From: Sanghuangporus weigelae
Taxonomy: Eukaryota; Basidiomycota; Agaricomycetes; Hymenochaetales; Hymenochaetaceae
Length of the DNA stretch: 64,000 bases
NCBI GenBank assembly: GCA_033182465.1
Contig: CP137323.1
Location: 1,736,001 to 1,800,000 of the forward strand
Direction: 5' to 3'
In this document: one piece after another, positions 2,878 through 39,860 of the stretch
Numbering within the stretch: position 1 is the first letter of the stretch
Layout: every line of letters begins with the position of its first letter
Program-made: the position numbers and the translations under genes
The notes under the pieces: generated by a model
What the model saw: only the letters and a program-made list of their open reading frames with translations
What the model was told of the DNA's origin: nothing
Databases searched by the model: none

Positions 2878-5132
2878 TCAGTCGTGTTGAGAAGACTCGT
2901 TTTTGAACCTTGTATTGTAATGACTATCTTTTTTGTAGCCTTCAGAAAATCCACATGCACCTTGTAGTGTTGCGTAACTCTCGTGCCAGCCATACAATAA
3001 AGGAGCCTTCAAGTAAAGTCTGGAACGGAATATTAACATATCTCAGTTCCAATGGTAAGAGAAAATCCATCCCCAAGTTCCTCATGATTTGATACTTGGC
3101 GCATCCGAACAATAAGGAATGTCGTTGTTTGATCGCAGAGAACCACGAGGATAGCGCCAATACGGGAGAATGTGGCATTAAATCAGGTTCAACCAGGTTC
3201 AACCTCTTCATCTGAGTATCTTCCGATCCGAATCGACGTTACTGTCCGATCGAGACGCCAACGACCCTCAGACTCATAACGATCCAGCTATCAAGACCTT
3301 GAATGCAGAAGATACTCGAGCATACTATAAATGCCGTACATACTTGACTAATGCACCATGTAAACTTCAGCCGAGAAAGAATAACCCCACACCCAAACGA
3401 AGACAACCAATCACTCGCGAGTTCATCGCCATCTTTCCTACTATTTCAGTCTACGTATAGGAAGCGCAATCTCTACGAATCAAGTTGAGGCTTCCTGTGT
3501 CGAGCCTTGCTCATCCTTCGCACAATCCTTAGCATGTTGAGTCAAAAGACGCTCAGAGCAAGAACGTCAAGACGTACATCGCGGCCGAAGTCGATTTCAC
3601 TGACACTTCCCGGAGCGTAGTTTGTTCCACCGTTCGCACCCCTCTCTCCGGTTTCCTTTAGATTGGTCAAGAACTGACCTCCAAGGATGCAGAGAAGTGT
3701 TGAGTTCGGCGCTACACTCAAGACGTCCGCAGCAAGGAGACTGATTGCTATAATACTGTCCGTCGTAATCTAACGAACGGAGCAGAAGATGACATTTCGG
3801 GGGTCAAATCTCAAATTGCCTGATGAATTCGAAACTACGCACAAGCCATAGTATAGGACCTGATCCTGGAAAGAACACGAACTAAACTCAAGCCCTTAAA
3901 TCCGGAGGACAACTTCCAATATTCCGTTTCCTTGCAGAGCTAGGCACATCAGAATCAACCCCAATATCGTTAGGACCGGCCTGCAATGGATCAGTGTGCG
4001 TAATTGCGTAGAGCTATGCGCTTACCATGAAACAATCGCTAATGTTCGTGGCGGATTCCTGTATACCAAACAGATCGCCATTCCATCCGCAAGACTACCA
4101 GGAGTGACTACAGGATGTCCGAATTATTGTAAGTAGGCCGAATGAGCAAGGGACTTACAATCTTCAAACGAGATACTATAAATGAGAATACCGAGGTCTA
4201 ACTTCCAATCCAAGAAGGATTTTGAGAGTGATAGAGAGGTTGTCCATCACTCTCAAAATCCCTCTTGGATTGGAAGCTGATGATGGACAGTTTCTTATCT
4301 TCTTGATACTTGAACGAGGTAGTTTCTCATACATAAGAGAGAGTACTCACCTTGATAATAAAGTGTTAAGACCCGAATGAGTAGAATGTCTGTGTGTTAT
4401 AGAAGCAATCAACTGCATCAACTCTAGCTTGTCCGCGTGCAGTCAACTAGCACGACGGTGACCAAAGCTAGCGTTTGAATGAGTTCGGCACTCATACAGG
4501 AAGCAAACTACGTACTGGACAAGTCTCCGGCCCAGACTAAAATCCGACATTCGCAAAACTACTCGAGAGTTTGGGGGGCAAATCCTTGGAGGAGATATCT
4601 AAACAGATGGACATCCAGATTTCAGACGTTATGACACTCATTCTGAAGAGTATATACACACACCTGGCAAGGCTCTCGGTATGAAGATAGACTGAAAACG
4701 CGTAAGTTTAAAACTGAATGTTACGTAGGATTAATCATCGGTTTACCAATTATGTTAAAAACAGCTGCAAGTAGCCCGATGTAACGATTCTATGTGTAGA
4801 TCAGAAGCAGTCCGACTCATAGACAGAGTTGTCACTTGCGGCAAAGTAAATGATGCCGACAGAACTGTGCGGGTTTGACTTCCACTTTTCGTCAGATCAT
4901 GAAGGTCGGGGTCAAATGGTGCAAATCAGCCAGAAATGCTTTATCTAAGAGCCTCGTCAGGACCCGAGCTTGCTCATTGTCGATCAAGAGCCACAAATGG
5001 AAATGACAATCCTCCGCACGACATCGTTATACAGCATATTGTCCCATCACATGTGACAGGTGAAAACGATAAAAACTCGACTTCCAGAAAAGATACACAT
5101 GCAAGCAACGCTAATATTCTCACAACTAAGCC
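2878..5132. other. Gene-poor stretch with an inverted repeat
   Basis: No open reading longer than about 90 codons and no recognisable motif on either strand. It separates the kinase-like gene from the 3' end of the lectin gene. The only clear structure is the hairpin at 4202-4276. Confidence 0.5.
4202..4276. repeat. Near-perfect 31-bp inverted repeat (hairpin)
   Basis: The left arm 4202-4232 and right arm 4246-4276 are reverse complements over 31 bases with a single mismatch, separated by a 13-base loop. The arms begin with CTTCCAATCCAAGA. No coding potential is seen around it. It could be a small-RNA precursor, the remains of a miniature inverted-repeat element, or a transcribed regulatory hairpin. 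Confidence 0.85.
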
Positions 5133-6683
5133 CTAAAACCTCTTCGCACTTGAAAAGACATCGAATCCTCCTCCACGTCTTCTTGCATAATTACTCGTCC
5201 CAAAACCAACACCACCATTTCGTCTCGAGTACTCCTGGTAGCCGTAGAACGCGCCAAAGCAGACACCAGCGAATAGGAAGAGTTTGAGGAAGAAAGAGAG
5301 CCAGGAGCTAGAGGATGAGCTTGTAGTGGGTGCTTTGAATTTGTCTCGCGGGCGTGAGGGGTCCGCTAGGATAGCTGAGGATGTTGATACGGATATGATA
5401 CTGGACGATGTTGCATTAGGTAAGGTGGAGGAGCAGGCTGAAAGGACAGCAGGTACGTACTCGTGGGCGTCGAAGACATCGCCCGTTAGGGCCGAGAAGC
5501 CAAGGAAAGGAGCTAGAGGGATCGAGACGTCCTCAATTTTGACGCAGTCTGTCCAGGTATCACCTACGTTCCGGGTTCAGTTACCTATCTGAATAGAGTC
5601 GTGGTAGGAATGGCGCTTACGAGCTTTGAACTGCAGCTTTACATCCAAGAGCGAGTCTTTCACGTATGTGATCTTGACTTTTGTGGGGAACTCTTTCTTT
5701 AGGAAGTTCGCCTAGCAAAGTAGAGAGTTTAGCAGTGTTGGGATGACAGGAATAACAGAAAGTAAAAGCGTACGGAGCATGCACCGATTTTAGTCCTCTC
5801 TCCGTCCTGCTCAAGATCATAACTTGTGTTCCCATCTCCCATCGTAATGACGACTCGCGGAAAGGCGTATGCATGTCGGGAGTTTGCATAACTGGCAACA
5901 GCTTCAGCAAATAAATTCGATGATGAGAAGGGCTCATTCGTACGTGTCAAGGATAATTCCAAGGCCAGTGAATTTATCTGTCGCATAGTCAGCGATTGCA
6001 TGAATGAGGTGTAAACGAATGGACACGCACCAATGGAGCCGTATATCGGACCCGGCTGTGTACGTTCTTTCGTCAACCAGATAGCTAGACCATCACCGTG
6101 GAGGTGCTGTTTTTGGTCGCCAGATATCTGTTCGGTGAAGAGTCTGATGAGAAGTTGAACATTATTTAGTAACTAGCTTCCTAACTTTGAACTCTACTTC
6201 GACCACGTAGTTGGTAGCGGTGAGAGGTAGACGCGACCATAGCCATCCCTGTGATGATCAATATTCAGTTCCCATGCTTGCTCTTGCTCGAAATTAGCTA
6301 TATCTACCGTTTGAGATGGCTTGTTGCGTGTCAGTCGAATATGTCTATTGGTGTTCTGAAAGGGTGTATTCAGCAAGACAGTTCACTGCGCGAAATGACA
6401 CGACACGTACGACGATAGCATCTGCTCCGAAATCCCACCATCGATTTTGTAGATCCTGGTCAATATATGGCGCGTAAACAGAGTGTGTTCGTAGATTCAC
6501 GAGCTATGTCATAACGTCAGTGCTCTCCTCTAAACGAAGTTTTGAAGGATGCCAGCGCACTCTGTCTATCGTAACATTTTTGGCGTTTTTGCCATCTTTC
6601 TTCTTGTCCTTGGCGGCTAGGATACCAAGTGGAAGAAATATGAGTATCTGCAGTAAAAGTCGATAGATCAAGCTTGTGCGCAT
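5133..6683 (-). CDS. L-type (legume-like) lectin, VIP36/ERGIC-53 family cargo receptor
   Basis: A type I membrane lectin of the early secretory pathway, expected to bind high-mannose N-glycans on cargo between ER and Golgi. The chosen start (6683) gives a hydrophobic signal peptide, MRTSLIYRLLLQILIFLPLG; an in-frame ATG at 6734 would add 17 residues before it. Across several short introns the exons carry the family core: 'LRTHSVYAPYIDQDLQNRWW' with 'DFGADAIV', then 'HIRLTRNKPSQ', 'HLHGDGLAIWLTKERTQPG' with 'PIYGS', and 'PRVVITMGDGNTSYD'. After a luminal stalk comes a transmembrane segment (SWLSFFLKLFLFAGVCFGAF) and a short basic Gly/Arg-rich tail ending near FSSAKRF. Its stop codon is at 5133-5135. 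Intron 1 probably has a GTGCGC donor. No classic KKXX signal is visible at the C-terminus, which fits VIP36 better than ERGIC-53. Family assignment is confident; exact exon edges are less so. Confidence 0.85.
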
Positions 6684-30495: not shown

Positions 30496-30866
30496 GGTAC
30501 TGTCCTAGCCATGTAGGACTTAGACTGGGCCATCTATCCTAGGAGCTTCAAGATAAGTCGGCCGTTACATGCCTGGCTAAAGCTTTACATAGATGCTCGG
30601 TGGCATTCAGGAAATGTTTAAGAACAAGATCTGTGGACCGAGATTCCAAAGACGCAAGAATGATACCATACCAGAGACAATGTTTTACTAAAGCACCATA
30701 GCCATAGAGAGGAAACGAAATACTACTTACACTTGACATAGTTGAGACGAGATGATAGTGAATGGGTGGCATGGACCACGTGACATGAAGATGTTCTTAA
30801 AAAAAAACTTAAATGTATGAAGATGCTCTCACGGTCCCGTGCTGTCACCTCCACAGCTCGTTAACA

Positions 30867-30900
30867 ATGGGGACTGGCAATCCCGAAGGTTGCCGCGTAC
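30867..30900 (+). repeat. Left terminal inverted repeat of the transposon
   Basis: Reads ATGGGGACTGGCAATCCC onward to CGCGTAC. The reverse complement matches 37120-37153 at 31 of 34 bases. TAACA lies directly outside at 30862-30866. Confidence 0.85.
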
Positions 30901-32437
30901 ACCTTTTTTTTCTGTCGGAGTTTAAATATATGCTTGTTGTAGTAATTAGCGTCGATCACAATGTCTCACTTTTACTTCTCACATGCTTACACGTTGTCTC
31001 TCTGCAATCTATCTGTGAGATCTTGCTTGGTCGGTCTCGGATACTTGTGGAGTACCTCGCAACAAACGTAAATCTTATGTTTGACCTTCTAAGACGATCA
31101 TCCAACCTTGAACAGGAAAGTTTATTGCATCAAAAAATTACCGAGGCCCATCAAATGATACAACAGCCCACTGCAATGGCCCCTCTCTGAAAACGAACGC
31201 AGACAAACTACTACAAAGATTCGAAGGTGAATGACATCAAGGCTGTGGCATGTAGATGCCTCGGACGCTACTCTCCCAAAGTACGTACGCCACTTAATTT
31301 GAACTGCGGACGAGAATAAATTCACATTGACTCTATATGCATACACGCAAGCCCAAAAGACAACAGCTCCAAATCTGTCTGAATATGCAACACGACACGA
31401 AGCAGCCCAGTTCGTCACGCATATATCCTCATTCAATTACGTCCTCTTTGTCTGCCACGGATGCAAGCTTCACTGGTTTCATGCCGCTGCGGATCGAGGT
31501 GAGTGCACAGTCTCATGGCTTCAGGTTCGGCCTCTGTATAGAGATATGGACATGTTTGATGTCTACTGGAACGAGACAATCAAGGTCATCATTCGCCAGC
31601 AAATTTGTACAGAGTACAAAAACATACAATGAATTGTTATTCCTCTTGATGTTCCGCATTGTACCTGGCGACTAAAGCAAGCAAAATTGCTTGCTTGTCA
31701 GCTTTCTTCGACATTGTCTTCTCGGCAGGTACGTCAGCTGGATAAATTTTTTTGAATTTCGCAAGCTGAATTTTCATCATAGGAACGGTCATTTGCTCTA
31801 CGGTGGAATTGTCCTGCTCTAGAGGGATCGATTCGAGATGTTCGTCTCGTTCCTTCTTCTTCTGCATAAGTAGGTCGATTTTTATTTTTTTTGTGGCATG
31901 TTCCTGATCCTTCTCTGCAGTAACTTCACGCCGCCGTTTCCTCTCCAGACCACTTGAATCCTCAGCGCGCGCCTGCACGCGCAAAAACTTCTGGTCTTCT
32001 TCACTGGTGAGTACCGTTTCAATAAATTCCTCTGTGTTGTTGCGTCGATATCTGAATACTGAATTGAATAGTCGCAGGGATCCGCTTGGATTATTGTGGG
32101 CAAAAAGCCTGAGGGAGCCAAGTGCTCCCTCATTTGCGTCGTTTGTTGCAGGCATCCATGCCTGCTCCTTCTCTGCTTCGGTAAGTGCTGCAATTGCTCC
32201 ATCATCATTAAATTCTGACGAAAAGCACTCCCAGGTAGATAGTGCACCAGTCAAGAAGGCCCTGAAAAGGGCCTCTAGCTCTGGCAGCCTCTTTTCAGTA
32301 ATAAGGTTTTGAATGGCTTCGATTGCATCGGGGCGATTCCAATTCTTATTTCCATCCAGGGTGGCCTCATGAGGCTTCGCCTGTGATGAAAGGATGAGCT
32401 GTGGTGAGCAGATCAATTTCCGCAAGTGTTGCTTGAC

Positions 32438-32500
32438 CTGTGTAAACATGCGAGACTCGAGTAAGTATCTTTGATAGATCCTAGCTGAGTATAGTCTCAC
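32438..32500 (-). other. Introner-like intron A in the transposon gene
   Basis: 63-base GT-AG intron beginning GTGAGACTATACTCAGCTAG and ending with an ACTCGAGTCTCGCATG block before TTTACACAG. It shares its 5' 25 bases and 3' block with introns B and C. It splits the coding sequence in frame between GPRLEQ and VKQHLRKL. Confidence 0.8.
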
Positions 32501-32680
32501 CTGCTCTAACCGTGGCCCGATTTCTAGGGCATTAACTTCTTCGAGAGATTTGCCACGAATAGATGCAATAAAATCCACCGAGACGGCCTCACGGTACAGT
32601 GTGAGACAGGCGAGTTCAGTGAGAGTTGGTGAGTCCTGAAGTCCATAATAAATGTTTTCTTCAAGATGATTGAATGCCGG

Positions 32681-34264
32681 TGTAGCGCACTGGCTCCTCC
32701 TGTGCCAGTACACTTATACTATGGCTCCCTCTTACTGCAGATACCATATCCCAGCACTGCCGACACCTGAGAGTGTGAGGGCACACTCCTATTGCACTCG
32801 GGACATCATTTGAGCATGTATCCATTGATTCCAGCACACGTACTGTACTGCGGCGCCCTCCTATGACCCAAATCGATCCGCCGATGGCTCCCCGACACTC
32901 AGACAGGTCCGCCGACAGCTCCTACCCAGCACCAGGCACTATAGGACACATCCCTCAGTGACTACGTGCCGCCGATCTTATGATTTACCATATGTACAGC
33001 CGTGCGGCGACTCTGGATGCCTCCGAGTCGGCCCCCCTTGGCGCCGATCAATGCGGCGGACACTCAGACATCCTCAGGTACCCTCGCCGACGCCTCCTAC
33101 AGCTTACCAAGCAGTCCCCCATTGTCTAGGGAGCTATATATTGTCATATGTGCTTACATGCCTCATTACGATGTATCTGCCACCAGTCCAGCAGTCCCCC
33201 ACAGCACTGCCGCTCCGGCCACTCATATTAGTCACTAGGGATCGCCCACACTCTGTATTGAGTGCCGCCGATGCATCAGACACCTCAGGGACATCGGCTG
33301 ATGTGCCCTTTGTCTCATATACGCGATATCAGCCTCCAATCATCGGTTCCGATGTTTCCTGACTTACCCCTGATGCGGCGGCCCCCATTAGACCATGTAT
33401 GGAAGGTAGGCATGTGGTACATCGGCATGCCAAGCCACCGACTCGCGCCGCCAAGCCCAACTCCACCGGCGCCCGTGTTATTGCAGATACTCAATATTTC
33501 ATGTGATTGGATGCCCCCCTCACGTTGCCGCTCTCAGATTTCACCTGGGTGCTCCGGCAGCGGCCCTTGGCGACCCAGATGACTCAGGAGATGTTGTCAG
33601 ACAGTAGGATGTGTCGGCGACAGCAGTAGAGTATATATAGAGCTTATACTAGCTTGTAGACAAAAGAGGATTCCAAGCCTAGCGAGGGTTCCAAGAGCAT
33701 GTACCAGACCGAGCGCCAGAGTTTGAGATATCCCTCACTCTGAGTCTCCCCTCATGTACTGAGCCTCCCCCTTGACTATATACTATCCTTGACATCTCCT
33801 CTTGTTTGACTCCACATTCTACTTGCCTTCGCCGCCTCCGGTACGCCTCTGCCGCTCTGACGTTCAGTGATCCGGCGCCCCTCTATTCGACGTCGGCGGC
33901 CATCCGACGACCCAGGCATCCTATCAGACGACCCAGCAGCGCCTTCTCCAGCCACTCACTCCATTTTATCCTTTATATTCATCTTATACACTTCATACCT
34001 TCCTGTGGCCGAGTTTATACCACGTCGGCAGCCTCTTGTGATCCCCCCTTTTGGGCGGCGGCCCTGTTATCCTATTCCCTTTATCCAGCGGCATCCTTAG
34101 ACCCATCCATTACATCTCCGACGGTTCCTGGCACCTGCCGGGTAGTAGGTCTTTGAGAGTCTGATAGCGTTGGCATCCCATTTTTGGAGGTTCCTTCATA
34201 CATTCAGCACCCTTAGTAGGACGGACATCTGTAGCACCTTCAGATACGACACCGCCGACCGACA
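32681..34264 (+). mobile_element. Solo LTR, 1.58 kb, inserted in the transposon
   Basis: Begins TGTAGCGC and ends GACCGACA (TG...CA ends), with CCGG directly flanking both sides (32677-32680 and 34265-34268) as a 4-bp target duplication. A TATA-like GTATATATAG lies at 33631-33640, placing the promoter in the 3' half on the plus strand. The 5' part is rich in repeated CCGCCGA-type motifs. No internal retrotransposon domain is present, so it is best read as a solo LTR left by LTR-LTR recombination; family unknown. It is not the LTR of the gypsy element at 46784. Confidence 0.7.
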
Positions 34265-34441
34265 CCGGCCTGACTTTAGAATAGCGAATTGATTCTATAA
34301 ACTCAAGATATGCGTCGAGGTGTGCAAGAATCTCTGCAGCCGCATCGAGATACGACGAATACCGGGTATTCGACGTGTCTGGAAAAGTGAACACTATTTC
34401 CAGGTGCTTCTCGGCCCAATCGCGAAATATATGGTGCCATC

Positions 34442-34509
34442 CTGCATGTGTAAACATGTGAGACTCGAGTGAGTTCTCATAAAAAGATCCTAGCTGAGTA
34501 TAGTCTCAC
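34442..34509 (-). other. Introner-like intron B in the transposon gene
   Basis: 68-base GT-AG intron beginning GTGAGACTATACTCAGCTAG and ending with ACTCGAGTCTCACATG before TTTACACATGCAG. It splits a Gly codon between DKDDKK and WHHIFRDW. Nearly the same sequence as intron A. Confidence 0.8.
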
Positions 34510-35172
34510 CCTTTTTATCGTCCTTATCATTCAACAGCATTCCCATCAATGAGCCGAGCTTCACACCCCCGGCCTTTGAAACCTCCACGGCACGCTTCTC
34601 AGCCGCCGTTTCATCACGTTTCTTGACCGTCAGTTCCTCGCGTTCTTCACCACCACCACTCTTTTCGGCCAGCTCCAAGACGGCTGCATTATCCTTGTTG
34701 GCAAGAATTCACGGTGAGATGTTGTGCTTTTTCCATTCCTCTCTCATTGCTGAATCGCCTCCTTTCACAGAGTTGAGTTCCTTATGCATCCCACAGCCAG
34801 CCCACACGAAAAGGCGCACCATGCGCCTTTCATGCTCTGGAAGAGCTCGTATGGCCTCACCAGCAAGTTCCTCGGCCAACCTGTTCATAAGAGATAAGTC
34901 TTTCTTGCGTCGTTCTTCAGCAGTCAATGAATTCCAAGCTGATTTGCCTCCCAGCTCTTCAATCATCTTTCTCCTTCCTTCAAGAACGAATCCGTTTCTC
35001 TCTTCCTCTGTCAGCGAAAAAAAACGGCGTGTCCCAAGTGCCAGGTGAGTCATTTGTTCCTTCCATGATGCCAGTAACTGATGTTTTGCTTTCTGATCTT
35101 CAGCATGATCCCCATGCGAGCCATGATACTTTAAAGCAAGATTCTGAACATTTAGAGACTCGCTTTCTTGTC

Positions 35173-35227
35173 CTGAAGAGACTCGAGTTAGCACCTATAT
35201 AAAGATCCTAGCTGAGTATAGTCTTAC
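35173..35227 (-). other. Introner-like intron C in the transposon gene
   Basis: 55-base GT-AG intron beginning GTAAGACTATACTCAGCTAG and ending AACTCGAGTCTCTTCAG. It joins PLALRNG to QESESLNVQ in frame. Same consensus as introns A and B with a shorter 3' end. Confidence 0.78.
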
Positions 35228-37119
35228 CATTTCTCAAAGCAAGTGGACTCTGATTGAACAGTGTAACGATCTCTTCCAGAGCCTTCACATCTCCCTTCAT
35301 CTGAGTCTCAGCTCGATGATTTCCTTCCAACCGTGCCTCCACAAAACGGACTTTGCGAACAGTCGAAGGTGAGTCATCTTTTGGTGTCTGAACATTGATG
35401 TGAAGAGAATCAAAATTTTGACTCTTGTTTGTAGTTCCATCTCTGCCTGTCGTAAATCCTTAGTGGATTGTGAACCTATTGATTCTTTGGGAAAGCCTTC
35501 AATATTATGGACAAACCTTTCGTGTGTTTCAAGTCCCATCCTAGTTGCAGCCTCGAGGCAATGCCAGCCTCACCAATGATTCTGGAAATGGTGCGTGCAC
35601 TCGGTATTTGTATCTTTGCTATAGACGAGCTGATCCCCAGTGATTCACAGTGGTATTTCATGAACTCTGAGATGACGGGTCCACATTTGCTCAGGGACAC
35701 GCCCTGAGCACAAATCCGGTGTACAAGGGCACGAAGTCGAGTGCTGTAATAGCCTTTGTGAGTGTTTCGAACTGTTCGCAATGTGTTTCGGCTGAAAGCT
35801 TTGAGCTGACGTATTTTGGTTTTAGCTCGGAAAAGCTGGACTCGAATGGCTTCATGTCTTTTTTGCTTCCTCAGCAGTCGTTCCCGTAAGCCCTCAGTCT
35901 TCTCCCTATAGTACTGATCTCGTTGCTGACTCTTCTTGCATAGTGTGTCGAGGCCATTCTGCAATATCTCTTGTCGATCGTTGGTAACAACACGCTCGAA
36001 TTCATGAGTAGCGAGCTCGCAAGATGTGCGCATGAACTGTTCTGAGCAAGAACTAATCTGGTTGGATAAGATGCAATTTTTCGCTTCTGCTTCAGTGAGT
36101 TCTGGTTGCTTCCTTGCAAGCTGCAATCGTAATTCTGAGATTCTCTTATCCAGAGTTGATTTTGAGTCGCGCAAACGTTTGATTATGGTCCGGTGATAAC
36201 GAAGGTCGTCGAGGGAGGTCGAGGTACGATTTCGGGCATTATGCAATTGATTTGTGATCAAGGTAAGTGCCTTCCTAGTCTCCACAAGTTCTTCTTTCAA
36301 TGCTGAATTCGTGTTCGTCAGTACCGAATTCTCTTCCTTCGCATCCCTGATCTGTGCTTGCAAGCTGTCAATTTGCTTTGCTTGCTCAATACTCTTTAGA
36401 AGAGCCTCAGTAAGTTCCACAGTCCTCGTCTGCACTTCACCAGTTAAGTTACTGATTTGTGCAGCTGCTGATCGTGTTCTTCTTTCAGGCTCTTCATTTT
36501 CCTTCTCAGCCTGCAGGCTCGAAAGCCTCGCAACTCGAGCATGCTGAGCCAAAAGCTGCCTTTTCCCCTTTTCCTTTGTATTTCTCATCTGTATAAAGAA
36601 TATGAAAGCCGAGTATGCACATTAAGTAATGAATTACATACGTGATGTGATCAGAATTTGTCCCGAAAAGCTTGCTTCTTGTTGATGGGAACAAGTTCTC
36701 GAGAAGTTCAACATTCCTTCTCCTGGTCACGTGTTCGTTTATTTCCTGATCCTGTAGGTTAGCATACACGCAACTCCCATTGAAATACAGGCTTCCACAT
36801 CTTTTTTCTTGCCATTCTAAATACACAGAATGCACTTTTTCATGCTTTTATACAATTCCATTAAAAAAAAATTTTATTGGTCTTTCCTGGTTCTGGAGAT
36901 ATATGCAAAAAAGTGTCATATCTTGCCACTTTTTTAATCGGATTTTTTTTAAAGCCCATATTCGATTTCCTTGAGTACAAATTCATATATTACAAGTTTT
37001 CCAGATACAATCTATGCGTTGTGGACGACGTTGTGTTCGTTCGAAGGCTGGATTCAAAAGTGTGACAACTTTCTCAAGGGATCGACGTACCGGCACGTCG
37101 CGGCATAGGTCGTGGGAAC

Positions 37120-37153
37120 GTACGCGTCAACCTTTGGGATTGCCGGTCCCCAT
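37120..37153 (-). repeat. Right terminal inverted repeat of the transposon
   Basis: Ends GGTCCCCAT, the complement of the left terminus. TAACA lies directly outside at 37154-37158, matching the left target duplication exactly. Confidence 0.85.
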
Positions 37154-37158
37154 TAACA

Positions 37159-38199
37159 ATACATACATGGACAGTACTTACTCTTTCAAAGTTACGCTAG
37201 GTATTTGGCATCATATCACCTGGAAGATGATAACATACTAATATCAAGATTAGGAGGACGATTACAAGGCTTACAGACGGTCATTGCATTCACTCTGAAT
37301 AGCCTGAATATCTTATCTGATGGCGGAAAAGTCATTGTTCTTGCTTCACGATGGTGGTGCTACCAGCCATGGCCCCCGAGTCGATGAACCATAGTACTCT
37401 CAAGCTGGCACCGAGACTGATAATAGCCCGATATTTTATTTGCTCTGCCAATTGTATTGGTCAGAGTCGAACAAATTATAAGTGAGTTTTGACCTGGTAT
37501 TCAAAGGGTGGTGTATGCTGGGTGGTGTATGCTGGCATTTCTAAAGAGGCTCGCGGTTGTGCAATTCGTTGCCGGTAGTGTCCAGGACGCACGAGCTGTA
37601 CTCGAGTTTTTCCTTGCAGCATAGATACTAACGTTACTACAGTATGTATATCTCCTGATTCCTTTCGTGCTCAGAACCATTGGAAGGATCATTTATTCGA
37701 ATCTCAACCGACTGTTTCCTTTCACAGCGTCTGCTAACCCACATATGCCGATGACCATGTCCTATATTCGCGCGTCATAATGAACGTAATCTTGCCTATG
37801 CCATCGCTTGCCATCGACCGGAGGAAAACCGAGGAAAGCACCGATTGGATGCCACTTGCAACACACAGATCTATCTGACCTATAAGTAAGCTCATCGATC
37901 ACCGCAGCAAAGCGTAAAGCCTTGGAGGAGCTCACTACTCTTTCCATCAGCTCCCCAGGCCCTCATCTGGCTTCCTGATTCGACATGACGCGGAACTGTC
38001 TTCAATCAACAGGGCACAATTAGAGCACCTGTGAATACTCGCAAAGCGAACGCAAGAATGCTCAGGTTCTCTCGAGTGGCACCGGAAAGTTGACGTTCAG
38101 GTTCCAGCTGAAGTCGACGGACTTGGTGATGCCTTTGCTCGCTTGTATCCGATTGGATGCCACTCCACTACTGGTTGACTTGTGCCACCCACGAAGCGG
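37159..38199. other. Intergenic, no gene seen
   Basis: Flank between the transposon and the promoter at 38200. A perfect 14-base tandem duplication (GGGTGGTGTATGCT twice) lies at about 37505-37533. Open frames are short. Confidence 0.4.
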
Positions 38200-38328: not shown

Positions 38329-39860
38329 ATGATCTGGGCCCTCGTGGCATCCTCCGTTGCTATAAAGCACCTCCTGCTGTCTTCGCTCTCGAGCGAAACT
38401 GCCTTCGTCGTCGGCTTCTGTATAGAATACTATCATCTTATGCAATATCCGGTCATCCATATGCCCGCCAACCCCATTCTATCTGGCTCTCTCTTGGCAC
38501 AGATACTCGGCGCTGAGGGACCCGTGCCTAAGTACCACGTCGACTCGGACACGATCTGGTACCACTCCTACACTCAGCGTAGACTTCTCGATTTGCTTCC
38601 GCCTCTGCCTTACCATGAACCCGAGCCCCATTTTGACGATCCCACATCCTCGTCCTCGTCCACGTCCACGTCCACGTCCACGTCCACGTCCACGTCCACG
38701 TCCACGGTCCAGGATATACCTGCCAACGATCCCTTGTCGCTGATGCCATCTGGCATCAACTTGGTCCTCATGGCTGGTCTCATCCTAGTTTTCTTCGGCA
38801 TCGTCTTCCGTTTCCTCATCTCCAGGGCACCGCGCTCAGTGGCAGTTCAGTCAAAGTCCATTCTCAAAGATGGTGCTGATGAGCCCCATTGGTCCGCGAT
38901 AAAATGGCTGGTTCTGTTGTGCATTCCGGCCACCTTTGCCCTTGGTCGTGTATCGGTCTCATCTGGACTGTTTGAAGAGATGCGTGATACGATCGTCTTC
39001 ATTGTGGCACTCGCAGTAGTCGTGTTCTCATCGGTTAAGGTCAGTTTCTCCCGATGTTGACGAATCTGGTCTCATGCCACTCGTTCACAGTTGATGTATG
39101 CTTCATCCAACGCCGCCCAGCAACATGTACCATTCCATATACACATTGGCTCATCATCTGCTGACGTGCTTTCCGAGTCACCTGCTATTGTATGTTACTG
39201 AACAGCATCTGGAAAGCGTAACTTACCAATTTTATTCATAAGGATATGGAATCTGCCATTGGCAAAACCAAAGCGAACAGAGGGTGCAAGGATCCAGCAA
39301 TATCTCGTGCCGACTCCATAAACTCTCAGCTTGCTACCGGAAATGAACTGGCCACAATCGATATGAAGGTAGAAGTTTCTTAATCATGACCTCGTATTGT
39401 CCAACGCTAATTATTTCAATGCTCGTTCGTTCTAGACGTTTGCTGTTGCAGCGGCCAGTACTGCGACGAGACACGCAGGAATGTTCGACGAGTTTCCCTC
39501 TGCTTCAATCCCACTCCGCAATGAAAATGACAAACTCGTGCCCCTGGTTACAACACCGCTTAAGGATGACGATACATGCGGCACTATGGTGAGTCCATTA
39601 AATCAACAATCATTTGGCTGAAGCTTACATTCCGTCCGTCCGTACATCAGACGCCCGAAGTGGATAGTGGGACAGAGTCAAGCGAGCCTTCCCTGTTGGA
39701 TGGAGATGAAGATGCTGGCACGATCTCGTCTTCGAGTCCATGTCCTTCCGAAGTTGTCGAGGATCCTGTCTCAGGTTCTCTCTCTACGGGGAATAGTACA
39801 ACAAGGAGGTCGAAGAAAAAGGGAAAGAAGTCTAATTCTCGTCGTAAGACTTCCGGTGAG
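38329..39860 (+). CDS. Unrecognised membrane protein, first copy of the exon-cassette locus
   Basis: ATG at 38329 (MIWALVASSVAIKHLLLSSL) begins a hydrophobic N-terminus. Next is an ectodomain-like stretch with a Ser-Thr dipeptide run encoded by a hexanucleotide repeat, then two or three membrane helices (NLVLMAGLILVFFGIVFRFL, WLVLLCIPATFALGRVSV, TIVFIVALAVVVFSSVK). Splicing at GTCAGT (39043) leads to further exons: LMYASSNAAQQHV, DMESAIGKTKANRG, TFAVAAASTATRHAGMFDEF, and TPEVDSGTESSEPSLLDGDE, ending in a very basic block RRSKKKGKKSNSRRKTS. I do not know the family. The last exons are repeated downstream (see the cassette array), so the true 3' end is unclear: the gene may end near here or continue through several cassettes to about 44250. 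Confidence 0.5.
38648..38706 (+). repeat. Hexanucleotide microsatellite (TCCACG)n
   Basis: About nine units of TCCACG or TCCTCG inside the first exon, encoding a Ser-Thr run. The length is likely to vary between strains. The downstream copy of this gene segment at 41035 lacks it. Confidence 0.9.

Follow-up and report, generated by a model that had tools for sequence, protein, structure and literature searches.

Introns apparently derived from the U3 snoRNA in a lineage of DNA transposons of the fungus Sanghuangporus weigelae

Introduction

The origin of new introns is a long-standing question, and a locus of the basidiomycete Sanghuangporus weigelae raises it in a concrete form. Within a 64,000-nucleotide stretch of this genome, analyzed here as a whole and referred to as the window, a single transposon gene contains three closely similar introns that lie between unrelated exon sequences. 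The original prediction for this locus interpreted them as introner-like elements, which in fungi were reportedly treated by van der Burgt in 2012. From what sequence were these introns made, how did they reach their sites, and do they belong to a family of introns dispersed through the genome? Judged from sequence comparisons, they appear to be introns derived from the U3 snoRNA and belong to one transposon lineage rather than to a genome-wide introner family. U3 is an RNA that helps to build ribosomes, so that the donor in this case would be a named, essential RNA; in addition, the position of each empty site is resolved to the single base, and the successive gains can be ordered on a tree.

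Results

Three related introns in a DNA transposon

The features of the locus, in window coordinates, are as follows.

30868..37152, minus strand: DNA transposon with terminal inverted repeats (TIRs) that carries the introns, delimited by the inverted arms and a 7-bp target duplication
35517..36588, minus strand: first coding exon of the putative transposase (coiled-coil-like N-terminal part), boundary set by homology, by eye
35459..35516, minus strand: intron 0, unrelated to U3, used as a control; an intron is present at the same place in relatives (nine copies displayed, five compared)
35173..35227, minus strand: intron at site a, apparently U3-derived (repeat matches, U3 alignment, empty sites in relatives)
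34510..35172, minus strand: exon between sites a and b, with an in-frame stop at 34709-34711
34442..34509, minus strand: intron at site b, apparently U3-derived (same three lines of evidence)
32675..34268, no strand assigned: ~1.6-kb repeat between sites b and c, with similar copies in L027 and L028
32438..32500, minus strand: intron at site c, apparently U3-derived (same three lines of evidence)
31637..32437, minus strand: last coding exon, 3' of site c, placed by frame and homology

The near-identity of the three introns was borne out, and the minus strand carries all of them. In the window there are exactly three occurrences of the 20-mer GTRAGACTATACTCAGCTAG, each on that strand (32481-32500, 34490-34509, and 35208-35227), compared with a shuffle expectation of 0.01 when three mismatches are allowed. 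This expectation, together with a kept 17-nt block located outside the splice signals, rules out chance or splice signals alone as the source of the resemblance. Read 5' to 3' on the minus strand, intron c extends from 32500 to 32438 (63 nt, phase 0), intron b from 34509 to 34442 (68 nt, phase 1), and intron a from 35227 to 35173 (55 nt, phase 1). Examination of the reading frames, checked by hand, also upheld the claim that removal of each intron keeps the frame; the 63-nt intron is itself open in frame, so that the frame says little about splicing at that site.

The element that carries these introns has the organization of a TIR DNA transposon. Its terminal inverted repeats lie within 30866-30900 and 37120-37154 of the window, the arms being 35 nt long and 91% complementary, and a 7-bp target duplication, TTAACAA, was read from the sequence at 30861-30867 and 37153-37159. 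Duplications of the same length were read from the flanks of related copies (CAACAAA at L046 and CTCGGAG at L024), and the combination of inverted repeats with a target duplication is found at L031, L046, and L024. The window copy is broken, both by the stop at 34709-34711 and by the ~1.6-kb repeat at about 32675-34268. The transposon protein matched no Pfam family, though many Agaricomycetes have homologs; the closest proteins come from Sanghuangporus, and one S. weigelae protein is 100% identical over 66% of the query. The family possibly represents an undescribed superfamily. The inverted ends of its members (L021-L024, L028, L031, and L044-L050) read TGG.G..YYGGCAAT and are accompanied by 7-bp duplications. 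Elsewhere in the window, at about 38650-38707, short tandem TCCACG units were seen by eye, perhaps inside a neighboring coding exon.

The shared intron core matches the 5' domain of U3

The core shared by the introns matches nt ~3-50, and in some introns up to nt ~66, of two U3 snoRNA-like genes in the same genome, with BLAST E values of 1e-11 to 1e-19 for the introns against the U3 locus. The two source loci, both on C5, are 97% alike over 312 bp, and each is preceded by a TATA box ~30 nt upstream and followed by a T run. Both align end to end with the Rfam model Plant_U3 (model positions 1-221; E 4.2e-8 and 4.9e-8) at scores of 36.5 and 35.9 bits, which are below the curated (gathering) score of 80, and at that score the C5 loci had no Rfam match. 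A search of the genome with Plant_U3, in which 29 of 616 candidates were scored, reported only these two loci. The general U3 model RF00012 did not report them and gave a single weak match elsewhere in the genome, and the short pieces in the intron-bearing copy L022 gave no U3 match in Rfam. In fungal U3 (PMC5832005), boxes A' and A belong to a hairpin, M1; pairing with the 18S rRNA involves the 5' half of this hairpin, and pairing with the 5' ETS involves a hinge. In the C5 loci, box A' reads TACTC, which fits TACTY, and box A reads GGATCT, with the second base off GYATCW.

All intron pieces begin within 1-3 nt of the predicted 5' end of U3 (model position 1), and their sequence suggests that the introns were copied from the 5' domain of the U3 snoRNA of the host. 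The short inverted GAGACT motif that the original prediction described at the ends is no transposon end, the U3 genes reading CAGACT...AGTCTC and the motif being altered in several copies. An introner with inverted repeats of its own was rejected because the motif is U3 sequence and changes between copies. Internal Pol III boxes were considered by eye; TCGAGTC resembles the core of a B box, but no good A box was noticed.

Filled and empty sites

Sixteen such introns were found in six divergent copies of the transposon (L021-L024, L028, and L031). Sites b and c are filled in all six and site a in L031, L021, L022, and L023, whereas L024 has the introns at b and c and none at a. Sites b and c are empty in L044-L049 and site a in L044-L048; at the intron sites, these intronless relatives show uninterrupted exon junctions, and the target sequence at b is kept in intronless sister copies. 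Related copies with empty sites argue that the introns were gained by insertion. Three further copies of the last exon (C11:37055, C9:1676452, and C8:1136406), in which site c is uncovered or replaced by other repeats, and a partial last-exon match (C7:2175233) were left out of the comparison. Intron c of two copies also contains solo LTRs of about 1.5 kb with TG..CA ends and 5-bp duplications (L021:5069-6580 and L024:about 3742-5735).

In a 12-row tree, which omits L050 (73 residues), the intron-bearing copies constitute one side of a 100/100 branch. In a 36-row tree that includes homologs from other species (24 of 89 homologs used), these copies again group together on one side of a 100/100 branch, with the part that has site a at 99/98, and the two Sanghuangporus clades are sisters. 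The distribution places the introns at b and c before the split of the six copies. Site a was probably gained later, in a subclade: L024 lacks it and has both b and c, so that the gains were probably not simultaneous, a pattern that loss in L024 could also explain.

Splice signals

The borders and internal signals of these introns are those of spliceosomal introns (GT..CTNAY..AG), set between conserved exon borders. An AG is present at the homologous exon border in 16 of 16 introns, and 13 of the 16 start with GT, the others with GC, GG, and AT; the branch site CTNAC is found in 15, with CTTAT in intron c of L028. Position +3 is a purine in nine of the 16 introns, eight of which read GTRAG, whereas U3 has C there, and the free base of CTNAC varies among introns, both as expected for spliced introns. 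Exactly at site c, an annotated protein from S. baumii includes VRLYSARIYCIGTYSSLDCLQQ, which represents 22 codons of the unspliced U3 intron in translation, and a relative from S. sanghuang reads straight through this site (LKKVQAHIRKL). We infer from these features, and from the uninterrupted junctions of the intronless relatives, that the introns are removed by the spliceosome.

Distribution in the genome

When the 33.9-Mb genome was searched with the 20-nt block, 19 matches were obtained at ≤3 mismatches, compared with three for a reversed control pattern. Seventeen of the 19 fall in the six copies of the window transposon, the two C5 loci, and one C10 locus; the remaining two, on C1, have three mismatches. 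A BLAST search with the C5 U3 locus likewise gave 17 matches, namely, the two U3 genes, 14 transposon introns at the same three sites, and one piece on C10, with no ordinary host gene among them. The part of the original prediction that survives is that sequence-related introns occupy unrelated exon sites that are empty in relatives; the suggested genome-wide introner family does not. Instead of many introns of unrelated host genes, the BLAST search found transposon sites, the U3 genes, and one piece in another transposase gene, a result close to that named beforehand as contrary to introners. Similar introns do occur at several unrelated sites (three sites, 16 introns), the similarity near the 3' border fading at sites a and b. 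Introners as delimited in PMC9860276 comprise at least four introns in genes with dissimilar proteins, and no such set was found in these searches.

Insertion into an exon created an intron at the transposon sites and not at the C10 piece. At the C10 locus (L027), the U3 piece lies directly before an exon of a different transposase gene, which gave no match to any exon query of the window transposon family. Five relatives of this gene (L053-L057) have, by eye, an ordinary intron at the same place, and the U3 piece of L027 is located between GTAAGTCTTC and TTAATAG, that is, inside the old intron. A repeat abuts its 5' end, so that the gene is broken there. The family of this second transposase matches DUF4218 at E 0.076 only and may be CACTA-like; the DPMHN motif is typical of CACTA. 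Two copies of the ~1.6-kb repeat, in inverted orientation, flank this transposase gene with its U3 piece in L027.

Conservation beyond the surrounding exons

Conservation is higher in the introns than in the coding exons on either side. At fourfold-degenerate sites, the 15 pairs of intron-bearing copies have identities of 30-54%, and the control, intron 0 of the same genes, has a mean identity of 41% in 10 pairs. Summed over the 16 introns, identity to U3 amounts to 91/128 at nt 1-8, 261/272 at nt 9-25, 158/192 at nt 26-37, 70/80 at nt 38-42, 118/128 at nt 43-50, and 134/256 at nt 51-66. One old insertion per site followed by neutral drift is ruled out by the divergence of the fourfold sites and of intron 0 as against the kept U3 blocks. 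With the exons saturated, the U3 blocks must owe their maintenance either to selection on their sequence or to refreshing from U3.

The best-kept blocks, nt 9-25 and 43-50, coincide with the pre-rRNA-pairing parts of fungal U3 (PMC5832005). The M1 hairpin is mostly kept as well (81/96 pairs), and five of the six copies retain nt 51-66 at site c; thus, conservation is not confined to the parts that pair with pre-rRNA. In L028, intron c has decayed (28/50 to U3), and the loss of most of its U3 sequence indicates that this sequence is not needed everywhere. The duplex predicted between the U3 piece and the 5' end of the 18S rRNA has an energy of -20.8 kcal/mol, calculated with an approximate 18S sequence. 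Two approximate patterns for the 5' part of the 18S rRNA had no match in the whole assembly, from which the rDNA seems to be missing.

Discussion

Competing histories

Over U3 nt 3-50, introns at the same site have an identity of 0.867 (27 pairs) and introns at different sites in different copies 0.861 (53 pairs), counted over 14 introns, one of which has LTR-derived first bases. Near-equal values are what a common template would give if old introns were overwritten time and again with U3 RNA or cDNA as the source, or underwent conversion by the U3 genes, in which case the likeness would not come from selection on the transposon; furthermore, concerted evolution of fungal U3 paralogs is regarded as likely (PMC5832005). 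However, the 3' tails resemble one another more within a site than between sites (p 0.037, 5000 permutations), nt 26-37 have changed in all three introns of the window copy with the neighboring blocks intact, and there is no conversion tract in the flanking codons, with third positions identical at 128/287 within 5 codons versus 2246/5117 beyond 40. We regard such refreshing as unlikely, and conversion between copies reaching into the exons is not supported either, given that, by the same counts, near codons are no more alike than distant ones. The near-identity to U3 beside saturated exons would also be explained by recent, independent U3 insertions at the same three sites in each copy, a history that is scarcely credible in view of the clade pattern: the tested filled sites are all in one clade, and the tested sites of the other clade are all empty although the b target is kept. 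Moreover, the tails carry site-specific likeness, and site c is also filled in S. baumii. Taken together, the site-specific tails, the absence of flanking conversion, and the kept b target favor vertical descent with selection over repeated insertion or conversion.

Vertical descent could, in principle, have run in the opposite direction, if the family had the introns from the outset and the intronless copies lost them. Because the two Sanghuangporus clades are sisters, presence alone is not decisive, and the intronless clade has kept intron 0, on the 5' side, as 3'-biased loss through cDNA would leave it. Yet, as fragments of a cellular RNA, the introns must have been inserted at one time or another, and the presence of site a varies inside the intron-bearing clade; we consider ancestral presence quite improbable. 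The last history to be weighed is that of genuine introner-like elements, in which a small mobile element disperses introns among genes, the transposon being just one of its targets. The related introns, found at three unrelated sites, would fit such an element, as would the similar piece at a fourth place, in an unrelated gene. This account appears very unlikely to us, considering that 14 of the 17 BLAST matches are the same three transposon sites, two are the U3 genes, and one lies in an old intron, that none was traced to a host gene, and that the introns have no inverted repeats of their own.

Relation to known systems

Fungal introner-like elements, or Introners, are likewise related spliceosomal introns at unrelated sites, gained by insertion, and lack clear target duplications or inverted repeats, according to PMC4457414 and PMC9860276. 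In contrast to these, the introns described here occupy few sites, are confined to transposon genes as far as found, and have a named cellular RNA as their apparent source; in PMC9860276, Pezizomycotina are the only nonaquatic group with Introners, whereas the present host is a basidiomycete. The mammalian U3 retropseudogenes and LINE-1 chimeras, among them the truncated U3 pieces joined to LINE-1 that are described in PMC13174262 and PMC4476161, resemble our case in that the 5' part of U3 was copied into the genome and cut on its 3' side. What differs is that the U3 piece here turned into an intron within a coding gene and has remained conserved. Intron-containing U3 genes of fungi (PMC5832005) also link the U3 5' domain closely to spliceosomal introns, although in those genes an intron interrupts U3, whereas here the U3 sequence is the intron; the two C5 U3 loci have no intron in the model match. 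Similarly, the mobile snoRNA-associated introns of fungi (PMC3596301) are gained introns with snoRNA sequence inside, but they hold guide snoRNAs, whereas in the present case the intron itself comes from a 5' fragment of U3. Titles and abstracts of the openly licensed literature yielded no report of introns made from U3, which does not prove that none exists.

Proposed origin and maintenance

We consider it probable that copies of the U3 5' domain, comprising roughly the first 60 nt, were inserted in the putative transposase gene and are spliced out of its transcripts, b and c having been gained before the six copies diverged and a probably later, and that nt 9-50 have since been kept near U3. 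These nucleotides are most likely held there by selection on the RNA sequence, be it for U3-like pairing, for protein binding, or for an effect on splicing. The outcome is that, within selfish genes, introns outlast coding exons in conservation. If the cause of this conservation is a U3-like function, the transposon would be exploiting the assembly line of ribosomes; with refreshing from U3 as the cause, an RNA would be serving as the template from which introns are rewritten. A more specific and tentative version of the former, which we rate as somewhat improbable, is that the introns provide the transposon with a functional imitation of the U3 5' domain. Either the pre-mRNA or the intron, once excised, would then pair with pre-rRNA or bind small-subunit processome factors, so that splicing of the element, its export, or its copying would be coupled to ribosome synthesis, and a second, unrelated transposon would have taken the same U3 piece into an old intron.

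As for the route of insertion, U3 RNA was most likely reverse transcribed and its 5' domain inserted into the transposase gene; the reason for proposing reverse transcription is that all pieces share the predicted 5' end of the RNA as their starting point. In the predicted fold of U3, the 3' end pairs with nt 78-84, adjoining the 5' domain, and in this position it could prime a cDNA of nt 1-77. As would be characteristic of self-primed retropseudogenes, the pieces start within 1-3 nt of position 1 and end no further than nt ~67, the stem of the predicted fold beginning at nt 78. Self-primed transcripts were reportedly proposed for human U3 pseudogenes by Bernstein and colleagues (1983). Once inserted, the piece would have obtained the GT of its 5' splice site from the target and/or by later mutation, the U3 sequence GCTAAC would have served as the branch site CTNAC, and a downstream AG would have completed the intron, after which nt 9-50 would have been held near U3 as the remainder drifted. 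At site c, L031 and L021 (two of the six copies) have AGGT on both sides of the intron, a pattern explained equally well by a short target duplication and by the splice consensus.
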